A stretch of DNA of 64,000 bases from the NCBI RefSeq assembly GCF_028553885.1, contig NZ_CP067169.1:186001-250000 (forward strand). Reading direction: 5' to 3'. How positions within the stretch are numbered: the first letter of the stretch is position 1; every line of letters begins with the position of its first letter. Under the pieces are notes generated by a model. It was not told where the DNA came from and did no database searches. It worked only from the letters and a program-made list of their open reading frames with translations. This document shows positions 12,826 through 18,946 of the stretch, piece by piece. This DNA is from Paracoccus aestuarii. Lineage in GTDB: Bacteria > Pseudomonadota > Alphaproteobacteria > Rhodobacterales > Rhodobacteraceae. A program made the position numbers and the translations under genes.

Positions 12826-13626
12826 CTATTCCGTGGGCCGGATGCGGGCGGCGGCGCCGCTGGCAAAGGCCGCCAGCCGATCGCGCGCCGCGGCCTGGGT
12901 GTTGACCACGCCGGCCACCGCCGATTCCGCATAGGCCGCGTCCAGCGCGCTCATGTTCTGCATATGGCTGATGGCCGAGCAGATGGCGAAATTCGACAGC
13001 GGCGGGTTCTGCGCGGCCTGGCGCGCGATGGCCAGCGCCTTGGCGGCCGGGTCGTCGTCGAGATATTGGCACAGGCCCACCGACAGGGCCTCCGGCCCGC
13101 GATAGAGCCGGCCCGACAGCATCATGTCGATCATCCGCGCCTTGCCGATCAGGTCGGCCACCCGGATCGTGGCACCCCCGCCGGTGAAGAGGCCGCGCTG
13201 ACCCTCGGGCAGGCCGAAATAGGTGTCCGGCCCCGCCACGCGGATATGGGCGGCCGAGGCCAGTTCCAGCCCGCCGCCCACGACCGCGCCCTGCAGCACC
13301 GCGATGACCGGCACGCCGCCGTATTCCATGCGGTTGAAGGCGTCATGCCAGCGCAGGCAGACCTGCATGAATTCCGCCGCGCTGCGATCCTCGCGGTGAT
13401 GTTCGACCAGATCGAGCCCCGCGCAGAAATGATCGCCCGCCGCGTCCAGGATGGCCGCGCGCACGCCCGCCCGGGGCAGGGTGGTGAAGATGTCGATCAG
13501 CTCCTCGATGGTGGCCAGGTCCAGGGCGTTGCGCTTGGACGGGCGGTTCAGGGTGACGCGGGCGATGCCCTCGTCATCCACCGCCAGCAGGATGTTGGTC
13601 AGCCGCAGATCGGCGATGTCGCGCAT
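12826..13626 (-). CDS. Enoyl-CoA hydratase/isomerase family protein (crotonase fold)
   Basis: A 266-residue crotonase-superfamily protein. Markers are [16 protein letters not shown], the first oxyanion element [12 protein letters not shown], the second [20 protein letters not shown] and a glutamate in [15 protein letters not shown]. It probably acts on an acyl-CoA, but the exact reaction cannot be assigned. Last gene of the seven-gene minus-strand run that starts with the sensor kinase; 68 bp separate it from the AEC transporter gene. Confidence 0.88.
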
Positions 13627-13694
13627 GTGGTCCTCTCCTCCCTCGATTGCCTCATGGGGATAGCGGCTGGCCGCGCAGGGGTCGAGAGGGGGCG

Positions 13695-14618
13695 TCAGGC
13701 GCCGATCAGCAGGATCAGCGCCGGGATGGTCACGATGCTGGCCGCAGTCGAGATCAGGATCGCGGTCGAGACCCGCTGCTGCGCCAGGCCGAAATGCTGG
13801 GCCAGGATATAGACGTTGCCCGCCACGGGCAGGCCCGCCGCCACGACCATCACCCCCGCCGCGACCGGATCGACGCCGAAGCCCCAGGCCGCCAGGCCCA
13901 CCGCCGCCGGGTGCAGGACCAGTTTCGCCCCCGACAGCCAGGCCGAGGGCGCCAGCCGCGCCAGCCGCCGCCCCGCCAGGCTGGCGCCGATGGCGAAGAG
14001 CGCCCCGGGCGTGGCCGCGGCCCCCAGCAGGGCCAGGAAATCGTCCACCGGACCGGGCAGGGGCAGGGACAGCCCGCCCCAGGCCAGGCCTGCGACCATC
14101 GCCAGGATCATCGGGTTGGCGGCCACCCCGCGCAGCACCGGCAGCACCGCCGCCAGCCGCAGCCCGCCATGGCGCGCGCCATGCACGATCAGCGTGATCA
14201 GCGTCGAAAAGACCAGCATGTCGATGGTCAGCACCATCAGCACCGGCCCGATCGCCGCCGGCCCCAGCAGCACGACCAGCATCGGCACGCCCAGAAAGCC
14301 GGTATTGCCGGTCATGGCGGAATGCGCCTCCATCGCGGCCTCGGGCAGGGTCAGGCCGCGGGCGCGGGCGATCCACAGGGCCACGGCCCAGACCGCCGCA
14401 GACCCCGCCAGATAGGCCGCGACGAAGCGCGGATCGAAGATCGCGCCCATGTCCAGCCCCGCCGCAAAGCGGAACAGCATCGCCGACAGCGCGAAATAGA
14501 ACACGAATCGGGTCAGCCAGGCCGCGCCCTCGGGCGGGAACAGCCGCGTCGCGGCGGCCCCCCAGCCCAGCCCGATCAGGGCGAAGAAGGGCAGGGTCTT
14601 CAGCAGGATCTCGGTCAT
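13695..14618 (-). CDS. AEC-family (auxin efflux carrier-like) permease
   Basis: A 307-residue membrane protein with about ten hydrophobic segments and the AEC marker [21 protein letters not shown] in the middle, plus [12 protein letters not shown]. Bacterial members carry malate, malonate or other organic acids; the substrate here is unknown. A hairpin GGCCCCC-CGA-GGGGGCC (14620-14636) fills the 19-bp gap to mbfA. Confidence 0.9.
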
Positions 14619-14637
14619 GGGCCCCCCGAGGGGGCCG

Positions 14638-15618
14638 TCAGCCCGATCCGATCAGCACCCCCACGGCCAGCACCAGACCACCGCCCACCACGACTTGCAA
14701 GGTCGCCCGCCAGAAGGGCGTCTGCATCCAGCGGTTCTGGATCCAGGCGATGGCCCACAGCTCGATGAAGACGACGATGATCGCGATGGTCGTGGCGGTC
14801 CAGAAATCGGCGATCAGATAGGGCAGGGCATGGCCCAGCCCCCCCACCGTGGTCATCACCCCCGATGCGATGCCGCGCTTGATGGGCGATCCGCGCCCCG
14901 ACACGACCCCGTCATCGGATGCGGCCTCGGTGAAGCCCATGCTGATCCCCGCGCCCAGGCTGGCGGCCAAGCCCACGATGAAGGTGGTCCAGGGATCCTG
15001 GGTCGCGAAGGCCACCGCGAAGATCGGCGCCAAGGTGGACACGCTGCCATCCATCAGCCCGGCCAGCCCCGGCTGGACCCAGGTCAGGACGAAATCGCGA
15101 TGGGCGACGGCATCCTCCTCGGCGCGGGCATCCTCGGGCAGCAGTGTCTCGGACAGCTCATGGGCGCGGTTCTCGTGGCCGCGTTCGGCGGCGGCCAGAT
15201 CGCCCAGCAGCTTGCGCGTCGCGGCATGGCCGCTGGACTGGGCGGCGCGGGCATAGAAATCGGCCGCGTCGCGTTCCATGCCGGCGGCCTCGGCGCGGAT
15301 CGCCTCCAGCGACAGGTTCTCGATCATCCAGGCGGGGCGGCGGGTCAGATAGCCCGCCACATGTTCGCGCCGGATGACCGGGATCGCATCGCCCCACCGG
15401 GCGCGATAGGCATCCAGCAGCATTCGGCGGTGGCCGTCCTCCTCGGCGCTCATGGCGTCGAAGACGGCGGCGCTGGCGGGATAGTCCTTGCGCAGGAAGG
15501 CCGCCCAGTTGCGATAGATGCGGGCATCGTCCTCCTCCGAGGCGATGGCCAGGGCCAGGATCTCGCGTTCGGTCAGCTCGGACAGGCGCTTGCGGTTGGC
15601 CAGGAAGGGCATGGTCAT
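14638..15618 (-). CDS. mbfA: Membrane-bound ferritin MbfA (rubrerythrin-VIT1 fusion), iron exporter
   Basis: A 326-residue fusion: an N-terminal ferritin-like/rubrerythrin domain (residues about 10-160) with metal-ligand candidates in IASEEDDARIYR, SAEEDGHRR, AGMERDAADFY and AAERGHENRAHE, then a VIT1/CCC1-type membrane domain (about 180-326) starting VQPGLAGLMDGSVSTLAP. MbfA proteins of Bradyrhizobium and Agrobacterium export iron and protect against iron and peroxide stress under Irr control. Here it sits only 12 bp after the TusA-like gene, with no Irr-type box in that gap, so it should depend on an upstream promoter. Confidence 0.93.
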   Translation of the reverse strand: MTMPFLANRKRLSELTEREILALAIASEEDDARIYRNWAAFLRKDYPASAAVFDAMSAEEDGHRRMLLDAYRARWGDAIPVIRREHVAGYLTRRPAWMIENLSLEAIRAEAAGMERDAADFYARAAQSSGHAATRKLLGDLAAAERGHENRAHELSETLLPEDARAEEDAVAHRDFVLTWVQPGLAGLMDGSVSTLAPIFAVAFATQDPWTTFIVGLAASLGAGISMGFTEAASDDGVVSGRGSPIKRGIASGVMTTVGGLGHALPYLIADFWTATTIAIIVVFIELWAIAWIQNRWMQTPFWRATLQVVVGGGLVLAVGVLIGSG

Positions 15619-15630
15619 GATCGGTCGTGA

Positions 15631-15888
15631 CTATCCTGAAGGGGTGGGCCCGCCATTCCCGGGCCGGGGATCACCCCTGCGGACCGTGAACTCGAACGCG
15701 CCGTCACCCAGATCGCGCTGCGCCACCATGACATGACCGGCCCCTTGGCAGAAATGCGGCACATCGACCACCGCCATGGGATCGGTGGCGATCAGGCGCA
15801 CCTCGATGCCCGGTGCCGCATCCTCCAGCACCTTGCGCAGCCGCAGCACCGGCAGCGGGCATAACAGGCCGCGCGCGTCGATGCGCAT
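15631..15888 (-). CDS. TusA-family sulfur-carrier protein
   Basis: An 85-residue protein with the TusA signature DARGLLCPLPVLRLRKVL, the catalytic persulfide cysteine being C10 in LLCPLP. TusA-like proteins relay sulfane sulfur in tRNA thiolation, molybdenum-cofactor maturation or sulfur oxidation. The start codon overlaps the stop of the DUF2478 gene (TGATG). The partner is not known; the DUF2478 and two-component genes suggest a regulated rather than housekeeping role. Confidence 0.88.
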   Translation of the reverse strand: MRIDARGLLCPLPVLRLRKVLEDAAPGIEVRLIATDPMAVVDVPHFCQGAGHVMVAQRDLGDGAFEFTVRRGDPRPGNGGPTPSG

Positions 15889-16412
15889 CACTGCGCCCCC
15901 GCCCGGTCCAGGCACCAGTCGCAAAGGTCCTCCGGTTCGACCCGCTGCGCCAGATCGCCCGCGAAATCGGCGAAGGCCGCGGCCTGCTGGCGGGGGACAT
16001 AGGTGACGACGGGCTGGCCCTCGGCCACGGCGCGGCCGATCAGGTCGCGAAAGCCGCGGCCCATCGCCTCCTGCCGGCCGAATTTCGGGATGATGACCAA
16101 GGCGGCGCCGGGCAGGCGCGGGGCGGTCCGCGCCACCGCCTGTTCCAGCGCGCCCGTGTCCAGCCGGCAGCCCTGCGCCCCCGGCCCGAGCGATTGCGAG
16201 ATCCGCAGCGGCGGGCCGTCGCAGCCCAGGACCACCATCTCCATGTCGCAGGGGATGTCGGGGCCCAGATCCAGGTTGCGCTGAACCGCGCCCGCCAGCG
16301 CCAGGCCGCGCCGCGCCAGCGCGGGTTCCAGCCGGCGGGCCAGATCCTCCAGCAGGCGGTCGGCATGGCCGGGCGCGCAATCGTCGGTCGTGGTGAACCA
16401 AGCCAGCATCAT
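15888..16412 (-). CDS. DUF2478 domain protein
   Basis: A 174-residue cytoplasmic protein. Features consistent with DUF2478 are GAVQRNLD after an N-terminal strand, a SQSLGPGAQGCRLDTGAL segment, LVIIPKFGRQEAMGRGFRD and GQPVVTYVPRQQAAAFADFAGDLA. DUF2478 proteins often lie near molybdate transport or redox genes; no biochemical function is established. It overlaps the response regulator by four bases upstream and the TusA gene by one base downstream, so the three are probably translationally coupled. C-terminal CDWC is a possible metal or redox site. Confidence 0.75.
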   Translation of the reverse strand: MMLAWFTTTDDCAPGHADRLLEDLARRLEPALARRGLALAGAVQRNLDLGPDIPCDMEMVVLGCDGPPLRISQSLGPGAQGCRLDTGALEQAVARTAPRLPGAALVIIPKFGRQEAMGRGFRDLIGRAVAEGQPVVTYVPRQQAAAFADFAGDLAQRVEPEDLCDWCLDRAGAQ

Positions 16413-17062
16413 GCCCCCTGAACGCCGCTGTCCAGCGCAAATTTCATCAGCCCGTTGATCCCGTCGACGCCCAGCTTGCGTTTCAGCGCCGAGGATGTGT
16501 TGGCCGCCGTCTTGTAGCTAACGCCCAGCTGGTCGGCGATGGCCTGCAGCCCGTGGCCCTGCCCGATCAGCGCCAGGACCTGCCTTTCGCGATCCGACAG
16601 CGCCCCCAGGGGGTCGTCCGCCGCCCCCGCCCGCAGCGTGGCCAGCGCCATGGCCTGCTTGGGCGACAGGTAGAACTCGCCCGCCTCCAGCATGCGCACG
16701 GCGTCGCGGAAATCGGCGGGGGGCGCGTTCTTGGACAGAAAGCCCTGCGCGCCCAGCTGCAGCGCGCGGGCGGCGAAACCGGTCTGGTCGTTCATCGAAA
16801 AGACCAGGATGCGGGCCTCGGGGGCGGCCCCGCGCAGCGCCGCGATCGCGTCCAGCCCGCCCAGGCCCGGCAGGCTGATATCCAGCAGGATCAGGCCGGG
16901 GCCCGCATCCGCATCCGCATCCCTATTCGCGGCCAGCTGGTCCAGCGCCTCCTCGGCGGACATGGCCTGGCCCACGGGGTCATAGCCCAGGTCGCGCAGC
17001 AGGCGGCTGGCCCCCAGATGGGTGATCGGGTGGTCGTCGATGACCAAGGCGCGTTTCGTCAC
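16409..17062 (-). CDS. NarL/LuxR-family response regulator
   Basis: A 217-residue regulator: receiver domain (residues 1-125) with acidic DDH near residue 9 and phosphoacceptor Asp in LILLDISLPGLGG at about residue 61, then a LuxR-type helix-turn-helix (about 150-210, LSDRERQVLALIGQGHGLQAIADQLGVS, split here by a long helix). It pairs with the kinase encoded 45 bp upstream. The end overlaps the DUF2478 gene by 4 bp, which makes that operon a likely output or sensor branch. Confidence 0.94.
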   Translation of the reverse strand: MTKRALVIDDHPITHLGASRLLRDLGYDPVGQAMSAEEALDQLAANRDADADAGPGLILLDISLPGLGGLDAIAALRGAAPEARILVFSMNDQTGFAARALQLGAQGFLSKNAPPADFRDAVRMLEAGEFYLSPKQAMALATLRAGAADDPLGALSDRERQVLALIGQGHGLQAIADQLGVSYKTAANTSSALKRKLGVDGINGLMKFALDSGVQGA

Positions 17063-17107
17063 GTCGTCGTCCAGTTCCTGTCTTGGCCCGCAGGGGCGCC
17101 GCGGCGG

Positions 17108-18415
17108 TCATGGCAGCCGGGGCAGCGCCGCCTGCAGCGTGGTGCCGGAGGGCCCGGCATCGACCTGCAACCGCCCGCCCATCAGGGTGATGCGTTCGCG
17201 CATCCCGGTCAGGCCGGTCCCCTCGGGGCGGTCGGGGTCGATCCCCTTGCCGTCATCGGCCAGGATCATGCGCCAATGCGCCGGATCGGTCCAGAGCCGG
17301 ATCCGCACCAGATCCGCATCGGCATGGCGCAGGGCGTTGGTCGTGCCCTCCTGCAGGATGCGGAACAGGGTCAGGGCGGTGGCCTCGTCCGGTTCGGGCA
17401 GGCCCGAGGCGATCTCCAGCGCGAATCGGGGCCGGGCAAAGCGGCGTTGCAGGTCGTCGACGTAATCGCCCAGCACCACCGGCAAGGGCAGCTGGCCCAC
17501 CGCGACCGGGCGCAGGTCGTCCAGTAGGGCGCGGTTCACGCGGGCGATCTGTTCGGCGATGGCGGCGATCTGGTCGGCAGCCTGGGCGGTGGCCGCGTCG
17601 GGGGCCTGGGCGCGCAGGGCATCCGCCTCGACCCGCAGGCCGAAAAGGCAGGGCCCCATCTCGTCATGCAGGTCGCGGGCGATGGCCTTTCGTTCCGCAT
17701 CAGCCCGCGCGACGATCTGCTGCTGCAGGCGCAGGCGGTCGGCGCGGGCCTGTTCCAGGGCCTGGGCCAGCCGGTCGGCATGGGCGGCCAAGGGCGCCAG
17801 ATCGGGCTGGGGCAGGGGGCCGATGCGCGATTCCAGCTCGCCCCGGGTCATGCCGGACAAACGGTCCTCGATCAGGGCGACGGGGCGCAGGCCTTGGGAC
17901 AGGGCCAGCGCGATCAGCCCCGCCTGCGCCAAGGCCGCGGCCACCGCCAGCGCCATCAGGTCGCGCATGTCGCGCCAGGCCCGCGCGATGCCCGGCCCCG
18001 GATCGCCGGTGATCAGCACATAGCCGCGGGGCCGGCCGTCGATGATGACGGGCAGGCGGGTCTCGGACGGGGCGGGGGCGACCAGCGCGCCGAACCAGCC
18101 CGGCGCGCGGGCGCGCGGATCGCCCGGGCCCGGCGGCTGGCGCAGCGTGCCGTCCAGCACGTCCACCACGCCGATCCGGGCATGGCGCGGTTCGGTCAGC
18201 CGTTCGGGCAGCAGGGCCATGATCCGGTCGGCGGGCACCGCGCCCTGCATCGTGCCGATCGTGGCCAGCACCAGCGCGCGGGCCGTGTCGGCGCCCATCC
18301 GCGTCTCGGCCGCGATGTCGCGGCGCAGGCGGTCCAGGCTGCCCAAGGCCAGCGCCGCGACCAGCAGCATCTGGACCGCCAGGATCACCGTCAGGATGCG
18401 GCCGCGCAGCGTCAT
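17108..18415 (-). CDS. HisKA_3-type sensor histidine kinase
   Basis: A 435-residue membrane kinase: first membrane segment residues about 6-24, an extracytoplasmic domain (about 25-165) ending in VIIDGRPRGYVLITGDPGPGIARAW, second membrane segment about 170-195, a HAMP-like linker, the phosphoacceptor box RDLHDEMG, and an HATPase region with N box TTNALRHADAD and G box DDGKGIDP and GTGLTGMRERI. The periplasmic domain recalls the LapD/MoxY type, as in FlhS/MoxY sensors of Paracoccus one-carbon metabolism; that link is a resemblance only. The ATG at 18415 precedes the first membrane segment. Confidence 0.9.
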   Translation of the reverse strand: MTLRGRILTVILAVQMLLVAALALGSLDRLRRDIAAETRMGADTARALVLATIGTMQGAVPADRIMALLPERLTEPRHARIGVVDVLDGTLRQPPGPGDPRARAPGWFGALVAPAPSETRLPVIIDGRPRGYVLITGDPGPGIARAWRDMRDLMALAVAAALAQAGLIALALSQGLRPVALIEDRLSGMTRGELESRIGPLPQPDLAPLAAHADRLAQALEQARADRLRLQQQIVARADAERKAIARDLHDEMGPCLFGLRVEADALRAQAPDAATAQAADQIAAIAEQIARVNRALLDDLRPVAVGQLPLPVVLGDYVDDLQRRFARPRFALEIASGLPEPDEATALTLFRILQEGTTNALRHADADLVRIRLWTDPAHWRMILADDGKGIDPDRPEGTGLTGMRERITLMGGRLQVDAGPSGTTLQAALPRLP

Positions 18416-18493
18416 GGCGGGCAGGATCGCGCGAATGGCGCGCCGGGGCAATGGCCCCTTCCCAAGCCGCGCGCGCCCGATTATGCAGCGCGG

Positions 18494-18946
18494 ATGAGCA
18501 GCTATGACGACCTTGCCGCCCGCATCCGGGCCCTGACCGAGGGCGAGACCGACGAGGTCGCGCTGATGGCCACCCTGGCCTGCGAACTGCACCATTCCGA
18601 CGACCGCTTCGACTGGACCGGATTCTACCGGGTGACCGCGCCCGAGATGCTGAAGATCGGCCCCTATCAGGGCGGCCACGGCTGTCTGGTGATCCCGTTT
18701 TCGCGCGGGGTCTGCGGGGCGGCGGCGCGCCTGCGGCAGGTCCAGATCGTGCCCGATGTCGAGGCGTTTCCCGGCCATATCGCCTGTTCCAGCAGCACCC
18801 GGTCGGAAATCGTCCTGCCGGTCCTGGGGCGCGGGGGTCGGCTGATCGGGGTGCTGGACATCGACAGCGACCGGCCGGATGCCTTCGATCAGGCCGATGC
18901 GGATGCCTTGGCCGCGATCCTGGCGCAGGTCTTTGGCGACCTCTAG
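18494..18946 (+). CDS. msrC: Free methionine-(R)-sulfoxide reductase (GAF fold)
   Basis: A 150-residue GAF-domain protein. It keeps the three cysteines of the fRMsr/YebR family: GHGCLVIPF, RGVCGAAA and HIACSSSTRSEIV. The enzyme reduces free methionine-R-sulfoxide with thioredoxin. The gene is divergent from the sensor kinase gene with a 78-bp gap. A nearby MbfA iron exporter fits a loose oxidative-stress theme. Confidence 0.92.
   Translation: MSSYDDLAARIRALTEGETDEVALMATLACELHHSDDRFDWTGFYRVTAPEMLKIGPYQGGHGCLVIPFSRGVCGAAARLRQVQIVPDVEAFPGHIACSSSTRSEIVLPVLGRGGRLIGVLDIDSDRPDAFDQADADALAAILAQVFGDL

Follow-up and report, generated by a model that had tools for sequence, protein, structure and literature searches.

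An mbfA iron-exporter gene without an Irr box in a DUF2478-TusA gene row of Paracoccus

What drives an iron exporter where its customary regulator is missing? The question is raised by a row of seven genes in a 64,000-nucleotide (nt) stretch of the Paracoccus aestuarii genome (contig NZ_CP067169.1, positions 186,001 to 250,000; hereafter the window), in which mbfA follows genes for a histidine kinase, a response regulator, a DUF2478 protein and a TusA-like sulfur carrier. Members of the MbfA family export ferrous iron; the window protein scores 538 bits against the NCBIfam MbfA cut-off of 450 and contains both PF02915 and PF01988. Across Paracoccus, mbfA appears to have left the Irr regulon, with both Irr and its binding box gone. 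DUF2478-TusA, often with the kinase-regulator pair, is best read as standing where an Irr-boxed promoter once was. This reading, in which mbfA would be expressed without Irr in a row behind DUF2478-TusA and the kinase pair, is given a probability of roughly 0.6. In Paracoccus a gene that is standard for iron export in Alphaproteobacteria lies outside the Irr regulon, in a new upstream neighbourhood that can be named, and what drives mbfA without Irr becomes a directly testable question.

Irr and the Irr box

A preliminary description of the window held that mbfA is normally a stand-alone, Irr-regulated gene, and an Irr box does precede mbfA in most loci of other genera. An Irr-box matrix, with its threshold at the 99th percentile of simulated sequence, was built from 29 mbfA loci outside Paracoccus. 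It places a box before mbfA in 27 of these 29 loci, which are the training set itself, and in 66 of another 71 named loci outside the genus, a few of which lie outside the family; the two sets come from two collections with some overlap in species, two pairs of MbfA proteins being identical. Passages of a published study likewise report that Irr binds mbfA of Rhodobacter sphaeroides (PMC3413700).

Within Paracoccus, the same scan finds no Irr box before mbfA at any of 49 loci, and the best score anywhere in the window is 4.6 against a threshold of 11.6. The separate, conserved Irr-box promoter that the preliminary description had named as evidence against tying mbfA to its upstream genes was not found. 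The Irr box is the only operator scored by matrix here.

The regulator was traced with an Irr query that is encoded beside a FabA-domain gene and passes both NCBIfam Irr cut-offs (the window genome is labelled G000; other genomes carry G-numbers and loci L-numbers). It matches 185 of 196 non-Paracoccus genomes of the family, 179 of them at E <= 1.3e-40 (counted by eye). In Paracoccus only 2 of 125 genomes (G330 and G339, neither with mbfA) encode an Irr-like protein scoring above 90 bits, as against 179 of the 196 others. At G330:C2 (L349) there are two tandem Irr-like proteins, one of which passes the NCBIfam Irr cut-offs; the protein at G339:C37 (L350) fails them. Some match to the query is found in 89 of the 125 Paracoccus genomes. 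Outside G330 and G339 the best matches reach at most 49.5 bits at 30-40% identity, and several of them fall at the places of FUR-family genes, which are read as Mur or Fur. A P. denitrificans Fur-family protein is labelled mur/irr in the literature because it shares 42-44% identity with the Irr, Mur and Fur proteins of rhizobia (PMC9409073); it is read here as Mur, one of its published names.

In the window genome itself, no Irr protein was matched at E <= 1e-8. Three stretches of the FUR family are present (121, 101 and 32 bits); they best match Fur or Zur models, and Irr models reach at most 43 bits on them, over partial stretches, against cut-offs of 150-170. Five non-Paracoccus genomes have mbfA and no strong Irr match; the box is absent in three of them (G074, G145, G169).

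Architecture of the gene row

The row comprises the following features, in order of transcription:

18416..18493, minus strand: intergenic stretch of 78 nt between the kinase gene and a divergent GAF-domain gene, the likely place of the main promoter
17108..18415, minus strand: histidine kinase (HisKA_3 and HATPase_c)
16409..17062, minus strand: response regulator of LuxR/NarL type (Response_reg and GerE)
15888..16412, minus strand: DUF2478 protein (DUF2478, 135 bits), with a predicted THEP1-like fold lacking the Walker A lysine
15631..15888, minus strand: TusA-like sulfur carrier (TusA, 69.3 bits; CPLP motif), with its ATG at 15888
14638..15618, minus strand: MbfA iron exporter (Rubrerythrin and VIT1), with no Irr box upstream
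13695..14618, minus strand: AEC-family permease (Mem_trans)
12826..13626, minus strand: crotonase/enoyl-CoA hydratase family protein (ECH_1)

All seven genes lie on the minus strand at exactly the coordinates first described. The junctions from kinase to crotonase measure +45, -4, -1, +12, +19 and +68 nt, reproducing the earlier gaps of 45, -4, -1 and 12 followed by the permease and crotonase; the TusA start overlaps the DUF2478 stop by 1 nt. Junctions were compared across loci for same-strand neighbours less than 300 nt apart, taking the start codon nearest to that of the window protein. The overlap is exactly 4 nt for DUF2478-TusA in 41 of 57 loci and also 4 nt for kinase-regulator in 14 of 34; all 33 regulator-DUF2478 distances fall in the range from -4 to +32 nt. 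Such tight spacing across loci is more than chance.

These junctions bear on the simplest alternative, that the genes are neighbours kept through slow rearrangement, with no common function or control. The flanking dapD, exoD, GAF and LysE genes are likewise syntenic in Paracoccus, as this alternative would have it. The recurrent 4-nt overlap between DUF2478 and TusA argues against it, as does the retention of the DUF2478-TusA-AEC order beside differing upstream partners (the kinase pair, a mobA-like gene or a tetrapyrrole methylase gene), and it is considered very improbable.

Conservation within Paracoccus

The order is not confined to this strain, the outcome that the preliminary description had set against its proposal, and is conserved across Paracoccus. 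The closest named MbfA loci are those of Paracoccus sp. PAMC 22219, P. gahaiensis, P. marcusii, P. indicus, P. tibetensis, P. salsus and P. marinaquae. P. indicus (L232) carries the complete row, and P. gahaiensis (L226) lacks just the crotonase. Present in 49 of 125 genomes (partial matches in G021 and G027 left out), mbfA is preceded by DUF2478 within 2 kb at 41 of the 49 loci, by TusA within 1 kb at 38, and by both the regulator (within 2.5 kb) and the kinase (within 4 kb) at 27; AEC lies within 1.5 kb downstream at 41 and the crotonase within 4.5 kb at 31, some contigs ending early (e.g. G288). Among 36 other Paracoccus genomes searched, 32 carry a DUF2478 relative. The order DUF2478-TusA-AEC also occurs without mbfA, at 19 loci, 8 of which include the regulator.

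The mbfA-AEC junction itself can be interrupted. In G036 a nitroreductase-family gene (L049:9780-10448) lies between the two, and gaps of about 695 nt at other loci suggest the same insertion.

Origin of the row

Outside Paracoccus, 126 of 196 genomes of the family carry mbfA, 103 carry DUF2478 and 80 carry both. The two genes share a contig in 11 of the 80, the nearest pair being 52 kb apart, a distance that covers these 11 genomes only, as the genes are on different contigs in the remaining 69. Around 100 mbfA genes from outside Paracoccus (flanks of about 1.5 kb for 29 loci and up to 5 kb for 71), no match was found to the window DUF2478, TusA, kinase, regulator or crotonase. The AEC permease was matched at 65 of the 100, at 52-68% identity, and lies downstream of mbfA on the same strand at 64 (L092-L120, L273-L343). 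The description of mbfA as a stand-alone gene is therefore not upheld. Because AEC adjoins mbfA at 64 of these loci and DUF2478 or TusA at none, the mbfA-AEC pair appears to predate the DUF2478-TusA row, and this points to an older mbfA-AEC partnership. A scheme in which mbfA was inserted between TusA and AEC was rejected, since AEC adjoins mbfA in most non-Paracoccus loci.

Phylogeny places the row-type genes together. In a midpoint-rooted tree of 105 MbfA proteins, 46 Paracoccus copies form one clade (100/98), consisting of 42 encoded behind DUF2478 or TusA, two accompanied by just AEC and crotonase (G007, G317) and two standing alone (G296, G297); the lone Paracoccus MbfA proteins of G275, G033 and G301 are placed among those of other genera. 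A tree of 94 AEC proteins, likewise midpoint-rooted, without rows shorter than 200 residues and with its bootstrap not settled, groups all 59 Paracoccus rows (94/94), mbfA-bearing and mbfA-less alike. Five mbfA-less genomes (G003, G010, G012, G022, G025) are nested there among mbfA-bearing rows (99/93); because of this nesting, the tree points to loss of mbfA in these five.

Taken together, the simplest reading is that an old mbfA-AEC pair was joined by DUF2478-TusA, and that losses followed. The ancestral state would be an Irr-boxed mbfA, often with an AEC permease gene downstream. The Paracoccus lineage would then have lost Irr and the Irr box, and DUF2478-TusA would have arrived directly before mbfA-AEC, in many genomes with the kinase-regulator pair ahead of it. 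Later loss of mbfA in some species would have left DUF2478-TusA-AEC.

The Irr-regulated mbfA genes of Rhodobacter sphaeroides (RSP_0850) and Bradyrhizobium (blr7895) belong to the same family and encode both domains, and AEC often adjoins mbfA there too. The Paracoccus row differs in that neither an Irr box nor an Irr protein goes with it and DUF2478-TusA stands upstream. In the literature searched, no paper joining Paracoccus, Irr, Rhodobacterales and mbfA was found, and passages of one of two papers naming Paracoccus and mbfA do not mention the linkage.

The kinase-regulator pair

The MoxY/MoxX two-component system functions in methanol oxidation. The window pair resembles it in combining a HisKA_3 kinase with a LuxR-type regulator and differs in adjoining DUF2478-TusA. 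The periplasmic part of the kinase is weakly like LapD_MoxY_N: all 35 aligned kinase relatives match this domain at E <= 5, the best at 1.5e-7, but the window kinase itself scores 17.1 bits, below the Pfam cut-off of 25.

The preliminary description regarded the sensor as dedicated to mbfA. This is not borne out by its distribution, as the pair is upstream at only 27 of the 49 mbfA loci and the regulator is also present at the 8 mbfA-less loci noted above. Fourteen genomes have DUF2478-mbfA and no adjacent regulator. In four of these (G006, G024, G331, G336) the regulator lies several kb upstream, and in the other ten it was not found at E <= 1e-35, in G288 probably because the contig ends. 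The pair is common but not required for the DUF2478-mbfA row, and because several genomes with DUF2478-mbfA have no regulator, any control of mbfA by the regulator cannot be general. In G006 and G024 (L054, L055), regulator and DUF2478 are separated by a block that holds a glycosyltransferase-61 gene along with two genes of no assigned family.

DUF2478, TusA and the molybdenum cofactor

What the two genes between the regulator and mbfA do is suggested by structure prediction and by their neighbours elsewhere. The AlphaFold2 (AF2) model of DUF2478 has a mean predicted local distance difference test (pLDDT) score of 95.8. It aligns with 1ye8 (Z 12.4, root-mean-square deviation (rmsd) 3.3, 151 residues) and 2i3b (Z 11.5, rmsd 3.6, 163 residues), the next structure reaching Z 7.6; Foldseek alone gave no match to the model at E <= 0.001, and no solved structure is related to DUF2478 by sequence at E <= 1. 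The predicted fold thus resembles that of the THEP1/NTPCR nucleoside triphosphatases. DUF2478 differs from these in lacking a conserved Walker A lysine: in 72 aligned proteins, lysine ranks in the top four letters at none of the positions 7-20. Cys82, Lys110, Glu115 and Trp166 are invariant in the same alignment. In the literature searched, a single paper names DUF2478, in a table on an archaeal plasmid.

The window TusA has the CPLP motif and scores 48.5 bits against the NCBIfam TusA equivalog cut-off of 78. Because it falls below this cut-off, it is labelled TusA-like rather than as the tRNA-thiolation TusA. An E. coli study reports that TusA is required for molybdenum-cofactor synthesis and that its loss disturbs iron balance, with less fur translation and iron accumulation (PMC11302051).

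Molybdoenzyme and cofactor genes recur near DUF2478. In Paracoccus, paralogous DUF2478 genes come after narGHJI and a peptidyl-prolyl isomerase (PPIase) gene, as in P. ferrooxidans and P. kondratievae and, with glp, in P. zhejiangensis; elsewhere in the genus DUF2478 adjoins a tetrapyrrole methylase gene or a mobA-like gene in divergent orientation. Thirty DUF2478 loci of the family (1.5-kb flanks; one member of each neighbour class checked by Pfam) include an FdhD cluster at three, NnrU at five, MobA with TusA at one and a NapC-type cytochrome at one, and the other 20 have none of these. Six plasmid records, hand-picked from 30 that match DUF2478, were examined, and five contain a molybdoenzyme or cofactor gene; one set of neighbours is fdhD-mobA-mobB-glp with TusA nearby, and another record has torAD. 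Clusters such as narGHJI-PPIase-DUF2478 and fdhD-mobA-mobB-glp share DUF2478 with the window row, with TusA nearby in Alloyangia pacifica. They differ from it in that the window row adjoins mbfA and the kinase pair and no molybdoenzyme gene. Consistent with a link to molybdoenzymes, G008 (99% complete, no DUF2478 match) has one PF00384 match, compared with 3-7 in 31 other genomes (G017 left out).

Because of these neighbours, the fold prediction and the role of E. coli TusA in making the molybdenum cofactor, a role in cofactor maturation is favoured: the two proteins most likely assist the delivery of sulfur or cofactor to molybdoenzymes. This would give DUF2478 a testable role, molybdenum-cofactor maturation beside TusA.

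The same evidence bears on the original proposal, that the five genes from the kinase to MbfA make up a single response dedicated to redox, sulfur and iron stress. The genes are tightly packed, and the iron accumulation reported for E. coli on loss of TusA makes a sulfur-iron link plausible (PMC11302051). Against this, the kinase pair, DUF2478-TusA and mbfA vary separately within Paracoccus, and the neighbours of DUF2478-TusA elsewhere include molybdoenzyme and cofactor genes, which molybdenum-cofactor maturation would fit better than redox stress. A dedicated stress module is accordingly not the best reading and is judged improbable.

At G000:C3:142609-144063, and in many Paracoccus genomes, a molybdopterin-domain protein of about 1040 residues has one in-frame TGA; it is presumably a selenocysteine formate dehydrogenase.

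Control of mbfA without Irr

On the favoured reading, the window mbfA would most likely be read within one transcript that starts before the kinase gene, and the MoxY-like pair would most likely set the level of the whole row. Several observations weigh against this reading. No conserved site is evident before the kinase (by eye and by 8-mer count), mbfA may have a promoter of its own in the 3' end of tusA, and several genomes keep DUF2478-mbfA without the regulator. DUF2478-mbfA without a recognisable TusA occurs in four genomes (L048, L239, L242, L246). No molybdoenzyme gene lies beside the window row, and G014 and G035 (86-88% complete, no DUF2478 match) still have 4-5 molybdopterin-domain matches. 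The remaining two of the five genomes with mbfA and no strong Irr match, G147 and G222, retain the box, although Irr may be missed in these assemblies of 270 and 320 contigs.

Alternatively, mbfA might have its own internal promoter near the end of tusA, controlled by a different regulator of the iron or peroxide response (RirA, IscR, OxyR or Mur), with the upstream genes mere neighbours. Genomes without the kinase and regulator still keep the row, passages on P. denitrificans list RirA, IscR and Fur-family regulators (PMC9409073), and some loci have a GC-rich element after tusA. Against this, the TusA-MbfA gap is just 12 nt in the window, and the GC-rich element is no commoner with mbfA (8/37) than without it (6/23; L236 left out for its unclear orientation), unlike what is expected of an mbfA operator. 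An internal promoter is judged rather unlikely.

The GC-rich element, which ends in CCCCCGAGGATATTTG, separates tusA from its downstream neighbour in some Paracoccus loci, mbfA-bearing or not (L083, L084, L088 and others), and the window has no copy with up to 3 mismatches. It was rejected as an mbfA operator or terminator, being unenriched with mbfA and of mixed orientation to the genes; as a terminator, it also folds no better than shuffled sequence (z 0.14 to -1.26).

Many molybdoenzymes also carry Fe-S clusters. A bolder form of the favoured reading, in which mbfA runs without Irr behind DUF2478-TusA and the kinase pair, is that the loss of Irr was answered by placing mbfA under a MoxY-like pair in an operon for molybdenum cofactor and sulfur carriage; demand for molybdoenzymes would then set iron export. 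If this speculative and rather doubtful proposal were true, a global iron switch, Irr, would have been replaced by a local respiratory one.

Across the 78-nt stretch from the kinase gene, the divergent GAF-domain gene (18494-18946, plus strand) encodes what we take to be a free methionine sulfoxide reductase-like protein. It adjoins DUF2478 also in several genomes without the kinase and regulator.

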